Assembly: GCA_029907255.1 (NCBI GenBank)
Contig: JARYMF010000015.1
Span: forward strand, 1 to 64,000
Origin: Armatimonadota bacterium
Lineage (GTDB): Bacteria > Armatimonadota > UBA5829 > DTJY01
DNA: 64,000 nucleotides
Reading direction: 5' to 3'
Shown: positions 43,683-58,180 of the stretch, piece by piece
Numbering within the stretch: the first letter of the stretch is position 1
Layout: every line of letters begins with the position of its first letter
Notes under the pieces: model-generated
What the model was told of the DNA's origin: nothing
Seen by the model: only the letters and a program-made list of their open reading frames with translations
The model's database searches: none
Program-made: the position numbers and the translations under genes

Positions 43683-46600
43683 TTTTAAATCCTCTACTTA
43701 CTGAGGAATAGTCTGCAACTTGGGCGCTGCCAAAGACTAGACCCTCACATCCTTACTTCGTAACTTTCAGTCCTCTACTTACTGAGGAATAGTCTGCAAC
43801 CAACGAAATTCGCGGTAGTCTTCTGAACGAGCTTACAGACTTTCAGTCCTCTACTTACTGAGGAATAGTCTGCAACTAATATGAGCATACATATTGCCGT
43901 CGGACGACCACTCTCGCCTTTCAGTCCTCTACTTACTGAGGAATAGTCTGCAACCTTGTGAGGAGTTTGTTATAAATGTAGGCACGATAGAGACCTTTCA
44001 GTCCTCTACTTACTGAGGAATAGTCTGCAACAAATTTGTCTTCTCCGACGACGAGCTTGAGCTGCTGGGCTTTCAGTCCTCTACTTACTGAGGAATAGTC
44101 TGCAACATCTAAGAGAAGATTACAAACTATTGGCGAAAGAAATTCTTTCAGTCCTCTACTTACTGAGGAATAGTCTGCAACAACCTGGGGCGGCATTCGC
44201 CGCCCCAATATTAAAAAAACTTTCAGTCCTCTACTTACTGAGGAATAGTCTGCAACCAACGAAATTCGCGGTAGTCTTCTGAACGAGCTTACAGACTTTC
44301 AGTCCTCTACTTACTGAGGAATAGTCTGCAACTAATATGAGCATACATATTGCCGTCGGACGACCACTCTCGCCTTTCAGTCCTCTACTTACTGAGGAAT
44401 AGTCTGCAACCTTGTGAGGAGTTTGTTATAAATGTAGGCACGATAGAGACCTTTCAGTCCTCTACTTACTGAGGAATAGTCTGCAACAAAAAGAATGAAG
44501 AAGGTTGATCAAAATCGTTGGGCTTTCAGTCCTCTACTTACTGAGGAATAGTCTGCAACAAAGATGGCTATAGCTAACTAACTTGCGCTTGGCACATTCT
44601 TTCAGTCCTCTACTTACTGAGGAATAGTCTGCAACTCCGTCAACCAAGCGATATAATGTATAGGTTATACCACCTTTCAGTCCTCTACTTACTGAGGAAT
44701 AGTCTGCAACATCGTTGTTTGGGCTGCGCAAATGCAGGTCAAGGTCTTTCAGTCCTCTACTTACTGAGGAATAGTCTGCAACATGATGAACTTATTATAA
44801 ATGTTGGCACGGTAGAAACCTTTCAGTCCTCTACTTACTGAGGAATAGTCTGCAACTTGGGAAGAATTTATTGTAAGTGTCGGCACGATAGAAACCTTTC
44901 AGTCCTCTACTTACTGAGGAATAGTCTGCAACTTGGGCGCTGCCAAAGACTAGACCCTCACATCCTTACTTCGTAACTTTCAGTCCTCTACTTACTGAGG
45001 AATAGTCTGCAACAATCTCCGTAATGAGCGCCCAGACGAACTAATCGCCCTTTCAGTCCTCTACTTACTGAGGAATAGTCTGCAACTCGGCTTAAGCCCG
45101 CGGTTTGTCCGCAAGAATACCGACTTTCAGTCCTCTACTTACTGAGGAATAGTCTGCAACACGGAAGGCTCTTGCTGCATGTTCATGACTGGAGTAAGCT
45201 TTCAGTCCTCTACTTACTGAGGAATAGTCTGCAACTATATATCACACTTGGCCGCTCAACGTTCATCCGGTTACTTTCAGTCCTCTACTTACTGAGGAAT
45301 AGTCTGCAACACTTTTTTCACCCCCCTCTCATGTTTTTTTGTGTGTCTTTCAGTCCTCTACTTACTGAGGAATAGTCTGCAACCTGTCGAGGTAGTGATT
45401 GGTGGCAAAACATATCAAGCCTTTCAGTCCTCTACTTACTGAGGAATAGTCTGCAACACGGCATAATGCAGTCCACGGGCTACTTCTCGCTTTCCCTTTC
45501 AGTCCTCTACTTACTCAGGAATAGTCTGCAACAATGCGCGCGGGAATGGCTGACTGAATTCGAATCTTCGTTCTTTCAGTCCTCTACTTACTGAGGAATA
45601 GTCTGCAACTTATCAAGTTAAGATTTAGTATTTAGAATGTTTGGTCGAATCTTTCAGTCCTCTACTTACTGAGGAATAGTCTGCAACTATCGCTTAGCCG
45701 ACGGAAGGCTGCTACTCCATGTGAACTTTCAGTCCTCTACTTACTGAGGAATAGTCTGCAACATGAAAACTATACGGCGGACAACAAGGGCAATTGGACT
45801 TTCAGTCCTCTACTTACTGAGGAATAGTCTGCAACTGCTTTGGGCAACCTGGATTTGCTTTAGGCTCCTCAACTTTCAGTCCTCTACTTACTGAGGAATA
45901 GTCTGCAACTTAAGAATCTGCTCGCTTTGCAGGCGAGTGATTGGTTCTTTCAGTCCTCTACTTACTGAGGAATAGTCTGCAACTAAAAGCAAGCGGCCAT
46001 CCTCAAGCTTGTACAAAGTGTACTTTCAGTCCTCTACTTACTGAGGAATAGTCTGCAACGTAATGATATTCGACCCGGCCGGACGATTAAAATAGCTTTC
46101 AGTCCTCTACTTACTGAGGAATAGTCTGCAACAGTAGCTGCTGGGCGTGTTGCAAAATTCGTTTTCGAGTACTTTCAGTCCTCTACTTACTGAGGAATAG
46201 TCTGCAACAACCGTTTAAGACGCTCAAGCGTGCCCAAAACATCAGTCTTTCAGTCCTCTACTTACTGAGGAATAGTCTGCAACCCATTCATCAGGCTTGA
46301 CATCGTCAAAAAAGCATCGCTTTCAGTCCTCTACTTACTGAGGAATAGTCTGCAACTCAATAAGGCGGTATAACGTGTAAGTTATACCGCGCGTGTCTTT
46401 CAGTCCTCTACTTACTGAGGAATAGTCTGCAACTTGGAGCATGTTAAGGCTCATCCTGATGAACCCTGTGCTTTCAGTCCTCTACTTACTGAGGAATAGT
46501 CTGCAACTGAATGCCACGAAGATTAGCTGTAAGCTCCTAATTGCGCTTTCAGTCCTCTACTTACTGAGGAATAGTCTGCAACTAATTCCCATATCCGAAA

Positions 46601-47038
46601 AAGTTTCTAATTCCCATATCCGCTTTCAGTCCTCTACTTACTGAGGAATAGTCTGCAACAATTTTTTTTCAAGTCGTCCTCAGTGACGACTTTCAGGTCT
46701 TTCAGTCCTCTACTTACTGAGGAATAGTCTGCAACAGCAACAAAGAACAGCCTGCAGGAAAACAGCATTAAGGACTTTCAGTCCTCTACTTACTGAGGAA
46801 TAGTCTGCAACCGGCGGCAAGGAGGCAGTTGAGCAGGGAGTGCTGTTGCTTTCAGTCCTCTACTTACTGAGGAATAGTCTGCAACTCGAGATTTGAGGTG
46901 GCGATGCTTCTAGCTAGCATGCTTTCTTTCAGTCCTCTACTTACTGAGGAATAGTCTGCAACCTGCTGAGGATCTGGCTGGTGCATCCTTGGAGCCACCG
47001 CCTTTCAGTCCTCTACTTACTGAGGAATAGTCTGCAAC
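43683..47038 (-). CRISPR. CRISPR array, 45 repeats and 44 spacers
   Basis: Forty-five copies of a 37-base repeat; in transcript form it begins GTTGCAGACT and ends GGACTGAAAG. Spacers are 35-44 bases, mostly 36-40. A TCCTC/GAGGA stem with an eight-base loop precedes the handle ACTGAAAG, a good Cas6 substrate. Three facts give right-to-left transcription: the leftmost repeat (43683-43719) is degenerate at its handle end, the leader promoter lies at 47054-47082, and cas4-cas2-cas1 are on that side. One repeat (45496) has a single G-to-C change. Numbering spacers from the left, spacer 1 equals 17 and spacers 2-4 equal 8-10, leaving 40 distinct spacers. No spacer matched other genes in the window on reading. 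Confidence 0.99.
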
Positions 47039-47387
47039 CCGACCGCTTACTGCATTTTACCACAATAAAATACCAAATTCAAGGCATTTGAGCGCCCTAA
47101 AACCATGCAAACCCTTCGATTTCGCATTTTCGCAAATCGTTTTTCAGTCAATTTTTGCCCTCTATCTTCGAAAATTCGGCCGTTGGACGCCAAAAATTTT
47201 TAGTCCCGCTATCCGGAAATACATCAAATAATGAAACCCTTGTCAACTTTTCCAACAAAGGGTGTCTATACATTGAATATATCATTAACATTTAGTAGTT
47301 AAAACCGCTTGCATGCCTCCTTAATTTCCTATTTTTCGAAGATACACTGGGTTTTCGTGCAGATATACCCATCTTCGAAAATGGCTT
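47039..47387 (-). promoter_or_regulatory. CRISPR leader region
   Basis: These 349 bases between cas4 and the first repeat hold no gene. They are AT-rich and contain the array promoter. The 11-base word ATCTTCGAAAA occurs at 47164-47174 and 47371-47381, and inverted at 47333-47343. The last two form a stem with a 27-base loop just after the cas4 stop, which may end the cas operon or bind a protein. Leader-end adaptation signals should lie in the last 60 bases next to 47038. Confidence 0.8.
47054..47082 (-). promoter_or_regulatory. Array promoter
   Basis: On the minus strand TTGAAT (47082-47077) and TAAAAT (47059-47054) are 17 bases apart. The predicted start is within about ten bases of the first repeat at 47038. 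This gives the pre-crRNA a very short leader and supports leftward transcription. Confidence 0.7.
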
Positions 47388-50470: not shown

Positions 50471-51394
50471 TCACTCAATCCCCTTATTTATTTCATTCAG
50501 AATTTCTAGGGCTCCTGATAGTGAATCGAATTTACGAATCTCTATAGAAACCCCTGATAACTCGCTTAATTTTTCGGCGATTTTTTCAATCTCTTCTCGG
50601 TAGCCGTTATTCAACGGACTGATTGTAGGAGCAGGTACGGATGTAGTAGATATAGCAATAATTCCCTCTGCTCCAATCACATGTGGAAACTGTGTATTTC
50701 TCTGTGCACCTTTTGGAGCGCTTAGGGTACATCCAAGCGCTTGAATTGCTGCACGCATGCGTGCCTTTTTATCAGCCTCAGGGATGACGTCTTTACGAGA
50801 AATATCGTTCCGTCCAATCCTAGATAGTTCCAGATGCGCTACCAATGCATAAATGCCTGAGGAAGCAGGACGATGGAAAATGGCTTGCGTGCCCGCAACC
50901 GACTCAGTGCCGGTGCCTGACCCACGCGAAGGGTCATACTTAACATGGAAATACTGCTCTGTGCTGGTGTATTCGGGTATTCCAACTACCCAACCGAATT
51001 CAACAATGCTTTTCCTCGCAACAGCTTTCTCTGCGTAGAGCGTTCCAGCTATATCTGTTACTGCGCAGTTAGAAATCATAAGGTCTTGAATCTCTTTTGC
51101 ATCCTTTGCCCCAGCTTGTTTTCTGAAATTTTCATCCAATAGTATCCTATCAGGATGAAGAGCAGCAGCATTTGGGCATACATTCTGCTTAGCAGCGATA
51201 AGAAGTGGCGTCAGATGCTCAACCATGATGTGTTTGAACATATCGCCGCTGATAGCATTAACCACATGCTTTCTGCCAGCGTCGTCCAAAATGTGAACCA
51301 TTCGAGTCTGCTGTTGATTACCCTCAGTTCCTTCGTTGTTAAGATTATGCAGGTTTAGTTTGACTCTTGCGCAAAGTGAAAGTGAACTAATCAT
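50471..51394 (-). CDS. cas7: Type I Cas7, DevR/Csa2 family
   Basis: The 307-residue backbone subunit of the type I complex. LSLCARVKLNLHNLNNEGTE and VVNAISGDMFKHIMVEHLTP (near residue 45) are hallmarks of the DevR/Csa2 group. A central GSGTGTESVAGTQAIFHRPA and ALVAHLELSRIGRND complete the RAMP core. Its start overlaps cas8 by four bases (ATGA). DevR-type Cas7 proteins occur in I-A and I-B-like systems; the subtype is left open. Confidence 0.88.
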   Translation of the reverse strand: MISSLSLCARVKLNLHNLNNEGTEGNQQQTRMVHILDDAGRKHVVNAISGDMFKHIMVEHLTPLLIAAKQNVCPNAAALHPDRILLDENFRKQAGAKDAKEIQDLMISNCAVTDIAGTLYAEKAVARKSIVEFGWVVGIPEYTSTEQYFHVKYDPSRGSGTGTESVAGTQAIFHRPASSGIYALVAHLELSRIGRNDISRKDVIPEADKKARMRAAIQALGCTLSAPKGAQRNTQFPHVIGAEGIIAISTTSVPAPTISPLNNGYREEIEKIAEKLSELSGVSIEIRKFDSLSGALEILNEINKGIE

Positions 51395-53169
51395 TCTGTT
51401 TCTACCTCCTCAATTTCCGATATTTCTGATTCCAACAACTCTTCCTCCTCTTGCCTGATTTCTTCAGCCTCGGCCGCAGGCTCTCGACAAGTTCCATAGG
51501 CGCATAGAAGAGCACCAATTAATGCTGGGTTGTCTGTCTCATCAATTAGTGCGGCAACACCTTCTAAGTCCTCTGTCGTTATATTTGAAGGTGCAGCTTT
51601 TAGGGATTCCTTATTCTCACGACGGCGGGCATTCTCGCTGTTGTATTGGGTGACAAAAATTGCCAATGCCTCAATCAATTCTTCCTTCACAAAGCGTTTT
51701 CGGTTCAACTCTGCAACAAGCCCGTAGCGTATCTCACGCCAAGGTTTTTTCCCCATTGCCTTCTGCGCTTGTGCACTTACGGTTGATTTTCGAATTGCCT
51801 TAGCGATAGATTGGAAGTGGGGGTTTTTAAGAATTGCAGAAATGTTTGGTGCCATAGATTCTACCATCCTTTCTAGTGTTGATGTAGTAAACCGCGGCAT
51901 TCGCCGACGCCGTGGGTCGTTTGTAGCGCTCATCCAGTAAGCACCGTAATTACTGATGAAGCATATTAGCTCCGTGAAAGCTTCAGTGTCCCTAATCTGC
52001 AGAAACTTCCTGTATTGTTGAAGTAAGGAGATTTCTTCGCTGTTGGACTCATCTAGATTGCGTAGAATATTTTGATGCTCCTCGATAATACTGCGCCAGC
52101 TATCAGCATCTTCCTTGGACTTGATTGGAAACCAACCAGGTACTGCAACAAAAGACAGCTCGGTCACGTTCTTTCCAAATTGACTAGTTTTTAAGTAGTG
52201 AGTGATGTGCAAACCCGAAATTAGATCTGCCGGCGAATAATTGCTTATGAAGAGCTTTGCAAAGTTGGGCTGTTCTGAACTTGCATACTCAGAATGCTCG
52301 ATAAGAAGAGCAGCAACACGCAAAGACGCAAGTACATCTAGCTTCAGCTTTTTACTCTTAAAAAATTTACTGCTTCGAAGCTTCTGCACTATTAGCTCGA
52401 AGGCAGTAAGGGAGATATCTTTGGGAATCGGAGTTAATAATCTTAAATTCTGCTTCTCATCTTGATAAGGTACAGCTGCGGAGAAATAGCCTCCATATCG
52501 AAAATATTGGAATATCTCGTTGTCGCCTGTGTCGGCAATCTTAGGATTATGCCGATTCGTGCCTGAAGGCTTTATTCCATAAGATCCTTTTGCTATCAGC
52601 GGATTCATTAATTGATTGCCGCTTGCGCCTAGGTTTACATTCGGGATTGCTCCCGCCGGGTTTTGCATTCCTTTTAACGCTAGCTGAAGTTCTTGTGGCC
52701 AATTTGATTGCTTGCTATGCGTGTATTCCAGCGCTTTGTTAGCTCCCGTGTCAGCCTGCATGGTACTAAAGAATCTATACAAGCGATATTCAGGATCAGG
52801 AGCGTATTCCTCAAGCTTCTGCTGTATATCAGGATCATTACGTAAATTGGGGTTTCTTTTTCTTTCCGCTTCCAACTTATTTCTCTGTTCTTCCTTTCTC
52901 TGTTCAAGCTCTTTTGCCTCTACTAGGTTGTAAAAAGGGATTTCAGCTGGCGCATTAACCTTCCCATTGACCAAATAGCGATAGATACTCTTTCTAGACA
53001 GTTTACTGTAATTTTGATTTTGAGAATCCATCGCTTCTACAATAAAGTAATCACCTTCCATTCTTATGTGAGCTGGGTGTTCTTCTGAATCAAGCAACTT
53101 TGCTAGGCCAACTGCTGCGAACACATCGCCCTGTGTCTCTGTTTTTCTCTGAACATAATATTTACTCAT
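51391..53169 (-). CDS. Type I large subunit, Cas8-like
   Basis: A 592-residue protein in the position of the large subunit that recognises the PAM and recruits Cas3. It has no catalytic motif. The N-terminal part (1-120) ends in a charged coiled coil (KELEQRKEEQRNKLEAERKR). The middle holds NLGASGNQLMNPLIAKGSYG. A helical C-terminal part (about 440-560: KAIRKSTVSAQAQKAMGKKP, YGLVAELNRKRFVKEELIEA) resembles a small-subunit domain. No separate Cas11 gene exists in the operon, so this part may supply that role by fusion or internal initiation. The last 35 residues are very acidic. AGGAGG precedes ATG 53169. Confidence 0.75.
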   Translation of the reverse strand: MSKYYVQRKTETQGDVFAAVGLAKLLDSEEHPAHIRMEGDYFIVEAMDSQNQNYSKLSRKSIYRYLVNGKVNAPAEIPFYNLVEAKELEQRKEEQRNKLEAERKRNPNLRNDPDIQQKLEEYAPDPEYRLYRFFSTMQADTGANKALEYTHSKQSNWPQELQLALKGMQNPAGAIPNVNLGASGNQLMNPLIAKGSYGIKPSGTNRHNPKIADTGDNEIFQYFRYGGYFSAAVPYQDEKQNLRLLTPIPKDISLTAFELIVQKLRSSKFFKSKKLKLDVLASLRVAALLIEHSEYASSEQPNFAKLFISNYSPADLISGLHITHYLKTSQFGKNVTELSFVAVPGWFPIKSKEDADSWRSIIEEHQNILRNLDESNSEEISLLQQYRKFLQIRDTEAFTELICFISNYGAYWMSATNDPRRRRMPRFTTSTLERMVESMAPNISAILKNPHFQSIAKAIRKSTVSAQAQKAMGKKPWREIRYGLVAELNRKRFVKEELIEALAIFVTQYNSENARRRENKESLKAAPSNITTEDLEGVAALIDETDNPALIGALLCAYGTCREPAAEAEEIRQEEEELLESEISEIEEVETE

Positions 53170-55507
53170 TAGAACCTCCTTCTGCGGTGGCTTCCCGATC
53201 GCTTAGCCGAAGCATTCTGATGATAAAGCTAGTGAGAGGCCATTGGCATCGAATCCGATTGGCATCAGTGGCGCTTTTATTTAATGCTCTGACGAATTCT
53301 GTAAAGTCCGACCGCTTAAAGTTCACGTTCACATCGCCAAAAACAGCTTTGATTGCATTTTGGGCACTTCCACAAAGATTCTGGATTTTTGGATCTGGGT
53401 AAACCCAGCCGCCGTGGTGTGAAGCAATTGCGGTTATTACAGCGAGGCAAAGTTCTTCTGGCCAATCCTCGTGCAATGAACAAAGTAACTGATAAGCTAT
53501 GTACGCGCTTTGCAGTGCATGTCGCGGCTTGGTTGTTTTAGCAACACCAGAACCCGATGTATGGGCTAAAGCGCCTTGCGGTTTATACATAGGATCACAA
53601 GAGCACTCTATTTCATTTGCCCAAGACTGCCAGCCTTCTTGAAGTTTGCCTAGGTCATGCGCTTTAGCCGCAAAGTCTACTGCTTCCTTTAGTACTCCAG
53701 CCTCTATTTCATAGCAATTTCTTAATCCATGGACAAGCAGACCATTCGTATCTCCAAAACCTCCTTTAAATGGTGGTCTTTTTTCAATGTACTCAGCAAC
53801 TCGCTTAGCATGGTCAGCCCATAGTTCCCTCCCAGGTGGAGCATATCCAGGACGCTCTGGGGGCGAAGCATAAGGGCTAATATGATTACCAGGCTCTCCC
53901 AAAATCAGTCCCCATTCTGGGCTATAATTTGCTAATTCTGGCGAAACAAGAAAATGAAATCCAACAGCTTCCGTACCTTGCTCCACCTTCTTCCAAAAAC
54001 CGTTACCTTCATCATCATACGTCCATACTTTCAATCCTGAATGGGGAAACCTCCGAACAAACGAGCGCAGAGTATCAAGACTAACGCGGACCCCCTGGCG
54101 TTCTGAGGGATGAAAGTTGTCATTGCGTTCGATAATCATATTAACCGAAAGGTCAGCATCCCGAATGTAATGACCGATTCCTTCGTTAATTTTGCAAAAA
54201 TTGTGTTTGATTATCTCATTTCCTAATTCACGTAATCTTTCATCTAAACCCATAGCAAGAGCCTGCTTATCCTGAATTTTATGGACACAATCGACAAGAC
54301 TAAGCGAACTCTCAAAACTTAAACTCTCTATCTCGCCTAAGGCTTTATGCGTACCGCTTAGTGTATTGTCACAACAACTTGGGGTTCCATAGGGCAACCA
54401 GTTTCTCTCCTCCTCTGGCAGTTGGTATACATTCACCTCACCATCCCCACCGTATCTGGCACAGCGACCAGCACGCTGTACAATAGAGTTCGCAGGCGCT
54501 AGCTCTGTCATCAAATAATCAGCAGATATATCAAGTCCTACTTCCACAACCTGAGTTGCAATAACAATAGCATCCTGGGAAGGAGAGTGCTTACCCATTA
54601 TTTCTAGAATTCGCTGCCTTTGAACATCGCGGTCGCATTCCAAAAAACGAGAATGCAAACAGATTAAAGGTGTGCTTTTGCTTACTTTTTCAGCTAAATT
54701 AAGGTAAAGCGACTGAGCACGCTTAACTTGATTGACAACCACAAGACGTTTTCCACTACATGCCATTATTTCGTCTACCGAAATGGGTCGGTCATGAAGT
54801 TTAACGGTTTTTTTCACTAAAAGTGCGGGTATTCGCTGTTTGTCTCTTTCGCTTAGCTCCACATTAACTGCTTCAAGTTTTTCGATTATCATTTCACACA
54901 GCGGCTCAGTTGCTGTAGCCGTCATCCAAACACTTTGACAAAGACCTTTCAACATTCTACAGCAAGCAATCGCTGTCATGAACGCTTTTCCTGGGGGCAT
55001 TAGATGAAACTCATCGAATACCACAAGACAGCCGTGCAGTGCCGCTGAATTAACGTTATGAAGAGACGGTCCAAGTGAGTATGGACGCCCAAGCAAACCG
55101 CTTAATACCTGATCAAAAGTCGTTACAATTATTCGACCCCTGTCAAGAAAAGGATCTTCCGAAGTAACTCCCGTCTGAACTGTCACATCCGTGGCTTGCC
55201 AACCATCTAATTTTGGTAGTTTTTCGCGCAGTAAAGCAGCAATGCTGTCAATCAGTGTTCTAACAGGCAGAACGTAGATAAGCCGATGGGGAGGGTTTTC
55301 CCATCCATTCGATATTAGAAATGGGATAACGGCGCTCCACGTTTTCCCGCATCCTGTTGGCACCCTGAGGAGGACATTCTTTCCGTCAAACAAATGCCTT
55401 GCTACTTCGACCTGATAATCATATGCCGAAATATCTTCAGCCCCTTCAAGGTTACGAAGACATCTATTGATATTTTCTACTTTGTAATCCATAGGACTTT
55501 TTCTCAT
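53162..55507 (-). CDS. cas3: Cas3 helicase with C-terminal HD nuclease domain
   Basis: A 781-residue Cas3. The SF2 helicase comes first: Walker A RVPTGCGKTWSAVIPF (near residue 45), VVFDEFHLMPPG, WMTATAT, then IATQVVEVGLDISADYL and QRAGRCARYGGDG. The HD nuclease follows at about 570-720: DFAAKAHDLGKLQEGWQ, HALQSAYIAYQLL and AIASHHGGW. The helicase-then-HD order is the reverse of standard Cas3 and known in only some type I branches. It degrades DNA opened by the type I complex. It begins the effector operon; about 560 bases of non-coding DNA upstream must hold its promoter. It overlaps cas8 by eight bases. Confidence 0.92.
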   Translation of the reverse strand: MRKSPMDYKVENINRCLRNLEGAEDISAYDYQVEVARHLFDGKNVLLRVPTGCGKTWSAVIPFLISNGWENPPHRLIYVLPVRTLIDSIAALLREKLPKLDGWQATDVTVQTGVTSEDPFLDRGRIIVTTFDQVLSGLLGRPYSLGPSLHNVNSAALHGCLVVFDEFHLMPPGKAFMTAIACCRMLKGLCQSVWMTATATEPLCEMIIEKLEAVNVELSERDKQRIPALLVKKTVKLHDRPISVDEIMACSGKRLVVVNQVKRAQSLYLNLAEKVSKSTPLICLHSRFLECDRDVQRQRILEIMGKHSPSQDAIVIATQVVEVGLDISADYLMTELAPANSIVQRAGRCARYGGDGEVNVYQLPEEERNWLPYGTPSCCDNTLSGTHKALGEIESLSFESSLSLVDCVHKIQDKQALAMGLDERLRELGNEIIKHNFCKINEGIGHYIRDADLSVNMIIERNDNFHPSERQGVRVSLDTLRSFVRRFPHSGLKVWTYDDEGNGFWKKVEQGTEAVGFHFLVSPELANYSPEWGLILGEPGNHISPYASPPERPGYAPPGRELWADHAKRVAEYIEKRPPFKGGFGDTNGLLVHGLRNCYEIEAGVLKEAVDFAAKAHDLGKLQEGWQSWANEIECSCDPMYKPQGALAHTSGSGVAKTTKPRHALQSAYIAYQLLCSLHEDWPEELCLAVITAIASHHGGWVYPDPKIQNLCGSAQNAIKAVFGDVNVNFKRSDFTEFVRALNKSATDANRIRCQWPLTSFIIRMLRLSDREATAEGGSNE

Positions 55508-56069
55508 AAAAATTAATTACGAATGTGTTTCATTAATCTACTTCCTTAGCAAACAGTTTATCGCATTCCTAACTTTAATTCATATCACCAAATGAGAATT
55601 TTGGGAAATTTTTTGGGCGGGGGTGGGATGGCGGTGTTGGTTTCGATTTGCGGTTAATGGGGGCTTTGGTGCCAGCCGATCGTTCCAAAATGTCTTTTTA
55701 ATCAAAAGTATGCCATCCCTTTACTAACTACCTTCCAATTAAATTTCCCTTTTTGCAGTCGGACTCCTTGCCTTTACTGCTTAACTAATCGAACAATTGT
55801 CCGATTTTACCACAGCCTCTTTAAACTGTCAATAGCAAACATTTTAATATTTCTAGTAATCAATCGCCGGTTCTTTTAAATTCTTGCGGTGTTGACTGCA
55901 AACAAAGTGCTTAATCATGTTCGGGCGTTCTTGCTTAAATCAATTTTTAGAAGGTTTTTGATTTTTTTCTTGATACCGCCCTAATCTTTCGCGCCCCACT
56001 CGCCAACAATTAGTGTTGGACCGCTCACCCAATAGCTGTGCTGATTAGCAGACGCTTGGGTGATTTACC
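55508..56069. other. Non-coding stretch upstream of cas3
   Basis: No convincing gene is seen on either strand. It includes a G-rich run (55616-55640), T-rich tracts and an imperfect 18-bp palindrome at 55788-55805, ATCGAACAATTGTCCGAT, broken only at one symmetric pair. The cas3 operon promoter and perhaps an operator probably lie here. The right end merges into the 21-bp repeat array. Confidence 0.5.
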
Positions 56070-56363
56070 CCATCCAAAGGGACTCTCGCCCCATCAAAAG
56101 GGTCCCAAGCACCATGCGATGGGACCCAAGTACCTTTAAAAGGTTATCGTATACCATCCGATTGTTGCTGTATACCATTCGATGGTTGCCTTCTACCATT
56201 CGATGGTTGCCTTCTACCATTCGATGGTTGCTTTCCACCATCGGACGGTTGCTTTCCACCATCCGATGGTTGCTTTCCACCATCCGATGGTTGCCTTCTA
56301 CCATTCGATGGTTGCTTTCTACCAAGCGATGGTTGATGTGTACCAAGCGATGGTTACAGTGCC
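56070..56363 (+). repeat. Array of fourteen 21-bp dyad repeats
   Basis: Fourteen head-to-tail 21-base units begin at 56070, 56091, 56112 and so on to 56343, without a gap. Each has a dyad core ACCAT-NCG-ATGGT plus a linker such as TGCTTTCTA. The middle units are most alike and the outer ones drift. The unit at 56133 keeps the pairing by a double change (ACCTT-TAA-AAGGT). The period is two DNA turns, so all dyads face one side. As RNA, the array would be a row of five-pair triloop hairpins. Being a multiple of three, it leaves long frames open on both strands; those are not evidence of coding. It ends 74 bases before the plus-strand gene at 56438. Confidence 0.92.
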
Positions 56364-57133: not shown

Positions 57134-57168
57134 AAAAAAGGGCAGGCATGAGACTCCTGCCCTTTTTT
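57134..57168 (+). terminator. Strong Rho-independent terminator
   Basis: AAAAAAGGGCAGG and CCTGCCCTTTTTT form a perfect 13-pair stem with a nine-base loop, ending in six T. It lies 40 bases after the 218-residue gene. The symmetry (A-run before, T-run after) lets it also stop minus-strand transcripts coming from cas6. Confidence 0.93.
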
Positions 57169-57223
57169 GGCAATTTTAGCATTTCGCAAGTAATTAGGCT
57201 CTCACGCAATGGCACCTGACTGC

Positions 57224-58180
57224 TTACACTATGATTTCATATTTCCCCATGCCGAATACTGGAGAGTCGCCGACGTGGGTGAACATGCCCAAGACGAGGT
57301 ATGGAAGAAACTCCTCCATCTCTCCTTCATAAGTTACGTCGCCAACGATGCCTTCGTGGGGTATTCGCCGTCCCTGGCGGTTCGATACATGCTCCCAATA
57401 TATTTGGTCGAGATTCCCACTGGCGATTTTCACCTTTTCTGCGCGCTCGTGAATGCCTGCGTAGTCAAGCTGGGGCCATTCGCCGCAGTGGCCCGCCGAG
57501 AGAAGCGATATTCGGCGGAGAAGGTTTCGCATAAGGATGTGGAACTCAGGCCGAAATGCGGGCTTATGGTTGTATATTAATCGTGTGCAGGTTAGGAACC
57601 GAATTTTCAGGTTATCTTTTGGCAGTCGCTCGGCATATTTGACCATGTCGGCGTAATTCAATCTGACGGTAGTGGAGCGGACAACTGAGTCGGCGGGGTC
57701 GTAGACGACTTCGCGGCTGGCAGTTAAATCATTAACCGCGTAAATTTTCCCTAACGTAAAAGGCGCTCTCCCTTTTCCAATGCCTTCCGCTCCGAGTTCT
57801 CGAAGGGTTACTACGAAGTACGGCAGATATTCTATTGCGTTGCCGAAAAGGATAAGCCGCATTAGCAGGAGTTCCCCTTCTTCGTATTCCTGCTTGTTTT
57901 CCAGGGGTGGCTCGATGACGAAGGGGCGAGGGAATTTGCTATATCCGACGGTGCCTTTCTGCTCTGGAGTCGCGGGGGTTTCGAATATGTAGGCGTATGC
58001 GCATTTTGATTCCAGCTCACAGCCTTCGCAGGACTTCACCTTCGGTTGATAGCACACCAGCCGCTTGAACTGCATGGTGAGTGCGCCGCGGAGGGTACTG
58101 CCTTTGAACGGCGGGAGGAATAGAGGACCTGCACAAATCAGCTCAATCTCGTATGAGCTCAAAAGAAATTTTGAAAGCAC
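57224..58180 (-). CDS. cas6: Cas6 pre-crRNA endoribonuclease
   Basis: A 318-residue RAMP-type processing nuclease that cuts repeat RNA eight bases before the spacer. Typical parts are FLPPFKGSTLRGALTMQFKR (near residue 22) and a cysteine cluster CEGCELESKCAYAYIFETP (near 50). RFLTCTRLIYNHKPAFRPEF follows mid-protein, and the C-terminal glycine-rich loop is HVGDSPVFGMGKYEI. This matches the broad Cas6 family with a Cys cluster seen in several I-A/III systems. The start is GTG 58180 with GGAG upstream. It is separated from the other cas genes by the dyad array and the 218-residue gene, and it is the only crRNA-processing enzyme in the locus. Confidence 0.88.
   Translation of the reverse strand: MLSKFLLSSYEIELICAGPLFLPPFKGSTLRGALTMQFKRLVCYQPKVKSCEGCELESKCAYAYIFETPATPEQKGTVGYSKFPRPFVIEPPLENKQEYEEGELLLMRLILFGNAIEYLPYFVVTLRELGAEGIGKGRAPFTLGKIYAVNDLTASREVVYDPADSVVRSTTVRLNYADMVKYAERLPKDNLKIRFLTCTRLIYNHKPAFRPEFHILMRNLLRRISLLSAGHCGEWPQLDYAGIHERAEKVKIASGNLDQIYWEHVSNRQGRRIPHEGIVGDVTYEGEMEEFLPYLVLGMFTHVGDSPVFGMGKYEIIV

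Follow-up and report, generated by a model that had tools for sequence, protein, structure and literature searches.

Rows of 21-bp palindromes upstream of a helical fibronectin-III gene family in the Armatimonadota

An array and its neighbouring gene within a cas locus

The window, the whole stretch of 64,000 nucleotides analysed here, carries a type I CRISPR–Cas locus. An array of 21-bp units and a gene of the family described below lie between its cas3 and cas6 genes (Table 1), which confirms the initial annotation, where the array and an unknown gene had been placed inside a cas locus. The cas3 gene and the rest of the type I operon run leftward, away from the array, and cas6 converges from the right. 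The protein encoded between cas3 and cas7 is probably the large subunit of the type I system, whose subtype is unclear; cas5 at this locus gave a weak match too.

Table 1. Features of the window, and arrays of the two classes found in the same genome
Feature	Position	Strand	Remarks
CRISPR arrays	43917–47039		repeat CTTTCAGTCCTCTACTTACTGAGGAATAGTCTGCAAC, unit about 73–76 bp
592-aa protein between cas3 and cas7	51391–53169	−	no Pfam/NCBIfam match above cut-off
cas3	53162–55507	−	bystander, context only
Promoter-like site TTGACA-17-TAAAAT	55804–55832	−	good site upstream of cas3, apart from the array
21-bp unit array	56070–56363	.	14 contiguous units, one register; consensus TACCATYCGATGGTTGCYTTC
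Compensated-dyad unit ACCTT-TAA-AAGGT	56132–56144	.	sequence reading
Homogeneous core of the array	56152–56355	.	Tandem Repeats Finder: period 21, 9.7 copies, 88% matches
Family gene, 218 aa	56438–57094	+	helices 9–26, 35–87, 94–99, followed by a fibronectin-III domain; contig C7 carries a paralog
Inverted repeat with A and T tails	57138–57170		lies between family gene and cas6; resembles a bidirectional terminator
cas6	57224–58180	−	convergent neighbour of family gene; bystander, context only
ACCAT class arrays	contigs C15 (with gene), C20, C14		DNA search of genome
TTGTAC class arrays	contigs C7 (with paralog), C1, C16, C5		DNA search of genome

The fourteen units described initially were recovered both by reading the sequence and by Tandem Repeats Finder, which treats 56070–56143 as a weaker stretch. 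The unit consists of a dyad, ACCAT-nnn-ATGGT, and an 8-bp spacer, and the period is exactly 21 bp. The claim that every unit holds ACCAT-NCG-ATGGT holds in part: local dyads exceed those of column-permuted units (p = 0.005 for the window array and p = 0.0025 for its sister-species copy), but the motif is exact in only 6 of the 14 units. Units 3, 5, 9, 13 and 14 have a single arm mismatch each, unit 9 differing at its centre as well, and units 1 and 2, at the left edge, are degenerate (CCCAT...GGG). The compensatory double change reported for one unit is present, and the sister-species counterpart of that unit, ACCAT-CCC-AAGGT, has a one-sided change. From the end of the array to the start codon of the family gene is 75 bp.

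The gene belongs to a previously undescribed family, in which an N-terminal helical hairpin is joined to a fibronectin-III (Fn3) domain. Scans of Pfam and NCBIfam returned no family match for the window protein; a profile built from 70 relatives matched fibronectin-III over the C-terminal half (E 4e-30), and Pfam fn3 was detected in 10 of the 70 members. The AlphaFold model of the window protein (pLDDT 91.8) consists of an N-terminal helical hairpin and an Fn3 sandwich, and a Foldseek search with the whole model matched Fn3 only. Modelled alone, the N-domain reached a pLDDT of 94.1 and had no significant Foldseek match; VIA-align gave middling helical matches, to which we attach no evidential weight. 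No transposase domain was found, either in the window protein (Pfam and NCBIfam) or in the 70 members (Pfam). We rejected the identity of a defence gene, as PADLOC anti-phage models matched none of 10 family members, and a phage or plasmid origin, as tblastn with one relative found no match in either collection. Net charge is near neutral (family mean −1.3; window copy −6). Third codon positions hold 30 of 44 and 37 of 51 differences in the gene, an excess that indicates purifying selection.

Linkage of array and gene across the phylum

The family is present in 54 of 291 genomes of the phylum, with up to at least 10 copies per genome, and relatives occur in an Abditibacteriaceae MAG and a Phycisphaerae MAG. 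A scan of GTDB genomes by a narrow peptide pattern found two loci, of which the Phycisphaerae one carries a 21/42-bp array. When the 700 bp upstream of 97 gene copies were scanned for periods of 12–70, the best period was 21, 42 or 63 in 71 copies. At a strict threshold 50 of the 97 copies had a strong upstream tandem array, and the period was 21, 42 or 63 in all 50. Downstream regions had an array in 2 of 33 cases. The usual gap between array end and gene is 10–280 bp.

Units at different loci have unrelated sequences, and this can be so even beside proteins that are 84–92% identical; array sequence turns over much faster than that of the protein. From a constant period and a constant upstream place with unrelated units, we conclude that across the family spacing and position are fixed and unit sequence is free. 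No neighbouring gene is common to other family copies beyond orthologues. The window array belongs with the gene that follows it, as had been suggested at the outset, and not with the cas genes.

At L037, one family copy in genome G003 is surrounded, within 3.6 kb, by several 21-bp arrays that differ from one another. L051 and L075 are tandem paralogs, 92% identical, with 14 of 17 differences within the first ~50 residues and with unrelated arrays; the pair is a natural experiment for locating a region that sets specificity.

Local dyads were more frequent than in column-permuted controls over the arrays as a whole (Fisher p = 5e-16), although singly only 19 of 52 arrays passed at p < 0.05. 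This result, and the lack of a coding signal described below, agree with the original proposal of selection on pairing or symmetry and not on a protein.

Two classes of arrays in trans

The arrays listed for this genome in Table 1 were the only strong 21-bp arrays in the 2.06 of 3.23 Mb (64%) scanned, with a weak period-21 signal on contig C4. Seven arrays of two sequences, in a genome with two gene paralogs, make two classes for two paralogs, and each class includes two or three additional arrays that are gene-less. The sister species has arrays at all seven positions, and the flanks are about 90–94% identical. The arrays therefore predate the species split, and recent mobility is rejected.

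In the ACCAT class, dyad arms at different loci are 0.91 identical and spacers 0.48–0.49; spacers are closer, at 0.62, between orthologous arrays. That arms are shared between loci and spacers are not points to one common reader of the arms. The initial annotation would have taken the array for a neutral minisatellite had it occurred only here and varied without keeping its dyad. The arms are in fact retained, at three loci and in two species, and we reject a plain neutral minisatellite.

The TTGTAC class behaves differently. A derived arm, TTAGAC, is found in all four arrays here, in 16 of their 27 units, versus 1 of 19 in the sister species, arrays of the same genome are 0.91 alike versus 0.84 for orthologous arrays, and whole units, spacers included, are common to several arrays. 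By these sequence comparisons the four arrays have changed jointly in one lineage, which may reflect either a changing reader or units passed from one array to another.

The same layout is seen in a genome from another genus, with a gene-less copy for two of its classes. The search for a gene-less copy was negative for 3 of the 7 gene-linked arrays tested, and these three belong to more distant genomes. Two gene-less arrays sit between convergent genes, which is a poor fit to a simple promoter operator. Several gene-less arrays, too few to carry weight, lie beside glycan-related genes (L151, 15255–19973; L206, 2–1321; L033, 552–2162; L034, 1205–2818), by eye sulfatases and fucosidase-like, NagZ-like and PIG-L-like genes.

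Interpretation and comparison with known systems

We favour the reading in which a sequence-specific, probably dimeric, factor reads the arrays in trans. Of the options offered in the initial annotation, a cooperative protein-binding array is the one that fares best, and we infer that a protein binds there. A dimeric reader of palindromes, with one dimer per two turns, would account for the dyad as well as for the constant 21-bp spacing. The array would be a row of palindromic sites spaced by two helical turns, on which dimers of one factor would sit side by side on one helix face. Each such element would have two parts and its own palindrome, the array being the part in cis and the adjacent gene, coding for the helical hairpin and fibronectin-III protein, supplying the part in trans. 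Arrays of the same palindrome elsewhere in the genome would let the factor act at 3–4 chromosomal places per class. The outcome might be autoregulation, or perhaps the bridging or organization of the sites. To this reading as a whole, a DNA-level site together with its neighbouring gene, we give an even chance.

The neighbouring Fn3 protein is the likeliest partner among the candidates, and that it is itself the reader of the arrays, or the reader's partner, we consider possible, at somewhat less than even probability. The suggestion comes from the one-to-one relation of class and paralog, the strict linkage, and the faster change of the N-domain in the closest pairs (35 of 332 residues versus 7 of 318), a bias that fades in more distant pairs. 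A near-neutral charge and an N-domain with neither a family nor a solid fold match weigh against direct DNA binding. In addition, unrelated arrays beside proteins 84–92% identical mean that any code would have to shift through few residues. Only tentatively do we extend the reading to a phylum-wide class of array–reader pairs, in which each helical-Fn3 protein would recognize its own palindrome array and the satellites of its class. Here a phased nucleoprotein row would form, and the N-terminal helices would shift specificity fast, leaving the palindrome nearly unique to each copy.

A repeat population like that of REP and RAYT is an unlikely alternative. The arrays would be a non-coding family spread by copying tied to the neighbouring gene, and binding would be secondary. 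In its favour are genomes in which a class has one repeat with the gene and several without it, as for RAYT and REP (PMC3116915), and the whole units common to TTGTAC arrays. It has to contend with the seven positions conserved between sister species, with a protein that lacks a transposase domain, and with ACCAT spacers that are locus-specific though the arms are common.

We consider it quite unlikely that the arrays are functionless products of a mutational process that invariably generates duplications of 21 bp. Such a special minisatellite would explain a constant period with arbitrary sequence and a turnover far faster than that of the protein, but not the strict linkage to a single gene family, the dyad excess, or spacers that drift while arms stay.

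A row of RNA hairpins in the gene leader, or a small-RNA source, was also among the original suggestions. In its favour are the position of the array shortly 5′ of the gene and self-pairing above that of controls, but the excess occurs on both strands (p ~4e-8 each), and over 55 arrays there was no strand preference (MFE, + versus −, p = 0.85; second p = 0.22). The G003 array at L039 does pair better on the sense strand, with G–U pairs. A scan of Rfam matched no family, gene-less arrays occur, and what is kept between loci is the arm sequence and not pairing alone. On the strand test and the blank Rfam scan we rejected this reading, which we hold to be very unlikely.

That the repeat codes for heptads (21 bp being 7 codons) is hardly credible and was rejected: the period is divisible by three and some frames are open, but there is no excess of synonymous codons (z = −0.21) and several arrays are closed in all six frames. 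Scarcely conceivable is a part in CRISPR–Cas, as leader, spare array or cas regulatory site, which has in its favour the position between cas3 and cas6; the window's genuine CRISPR repeats, located elsewhere, differ from the 21-bp unit, the units are contiguous with shared spacers instead of being repeats separated by unique ones, and the lack of a neighbour common to other family copies beyond orthologues makes the CRISPR location incidental, the array being part of neither the CRISPR machinery nor the cas operon.

The DNA arrays to which this gene family is linked are fixed in spacing and symmetry but can vary freely in sequence. Should the protein read its array, its fold would be a new one for DNA recognition, with specificities diversified in nature, and the code could be taken directly from the gene–array pairs. 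Even with another factor as reader, the paired loci would offer a testable model of how DNA sites co-evolve in trans.

The initial annotation knew of no described element of this form, and our search of a mainly open-access literature likewise found no account of 21-bp arrays paired with such a gene. The C-terminal half of the protein resembles the fibronectin type III domain (PF00041) by profile and fold; the protein, of 218 aa in total, has a single Fn3 domain, preceded by an N-terminal helical hairpin that has no match.

Iteron- and centromere-type arrays (ParR/parC, omega/parS, TubR) are phased tandem sites beside a gene, on which dimers assemble cooperatively. The window array is similarly phased, tandem and gene-adjacent, and would be suited to such assembly. 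It differs in being chromosomal and in having another sequence at each copy. The adjacent gene has no Rep or partition domain, no shared neighbour family was found, and the shared neighbours include no replication initiator or partner of the ParA, ParM or TubZ type.

For RAYT genes and REP or REPIN repeats a long co-evolution has been proposed (PMC3116915). As there, a single gene copy lies by each class of palindromic repeat, each paralog has its own class, and the gene-linked class is also dispersed in intergenic DNA, here for classes of two genomes. The adjacent gene, however, does not encode an IS200-type HUH tyrosine transposase, the 21-bp repeats follow one another in direct tandem instead of forming inverted doublets, and gene-less copies are few and their positions old. 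No known system matches the layout, and it is the layout that is new: an even row of palindromes with a helical Fn3 gene, at many loci across the phylum.
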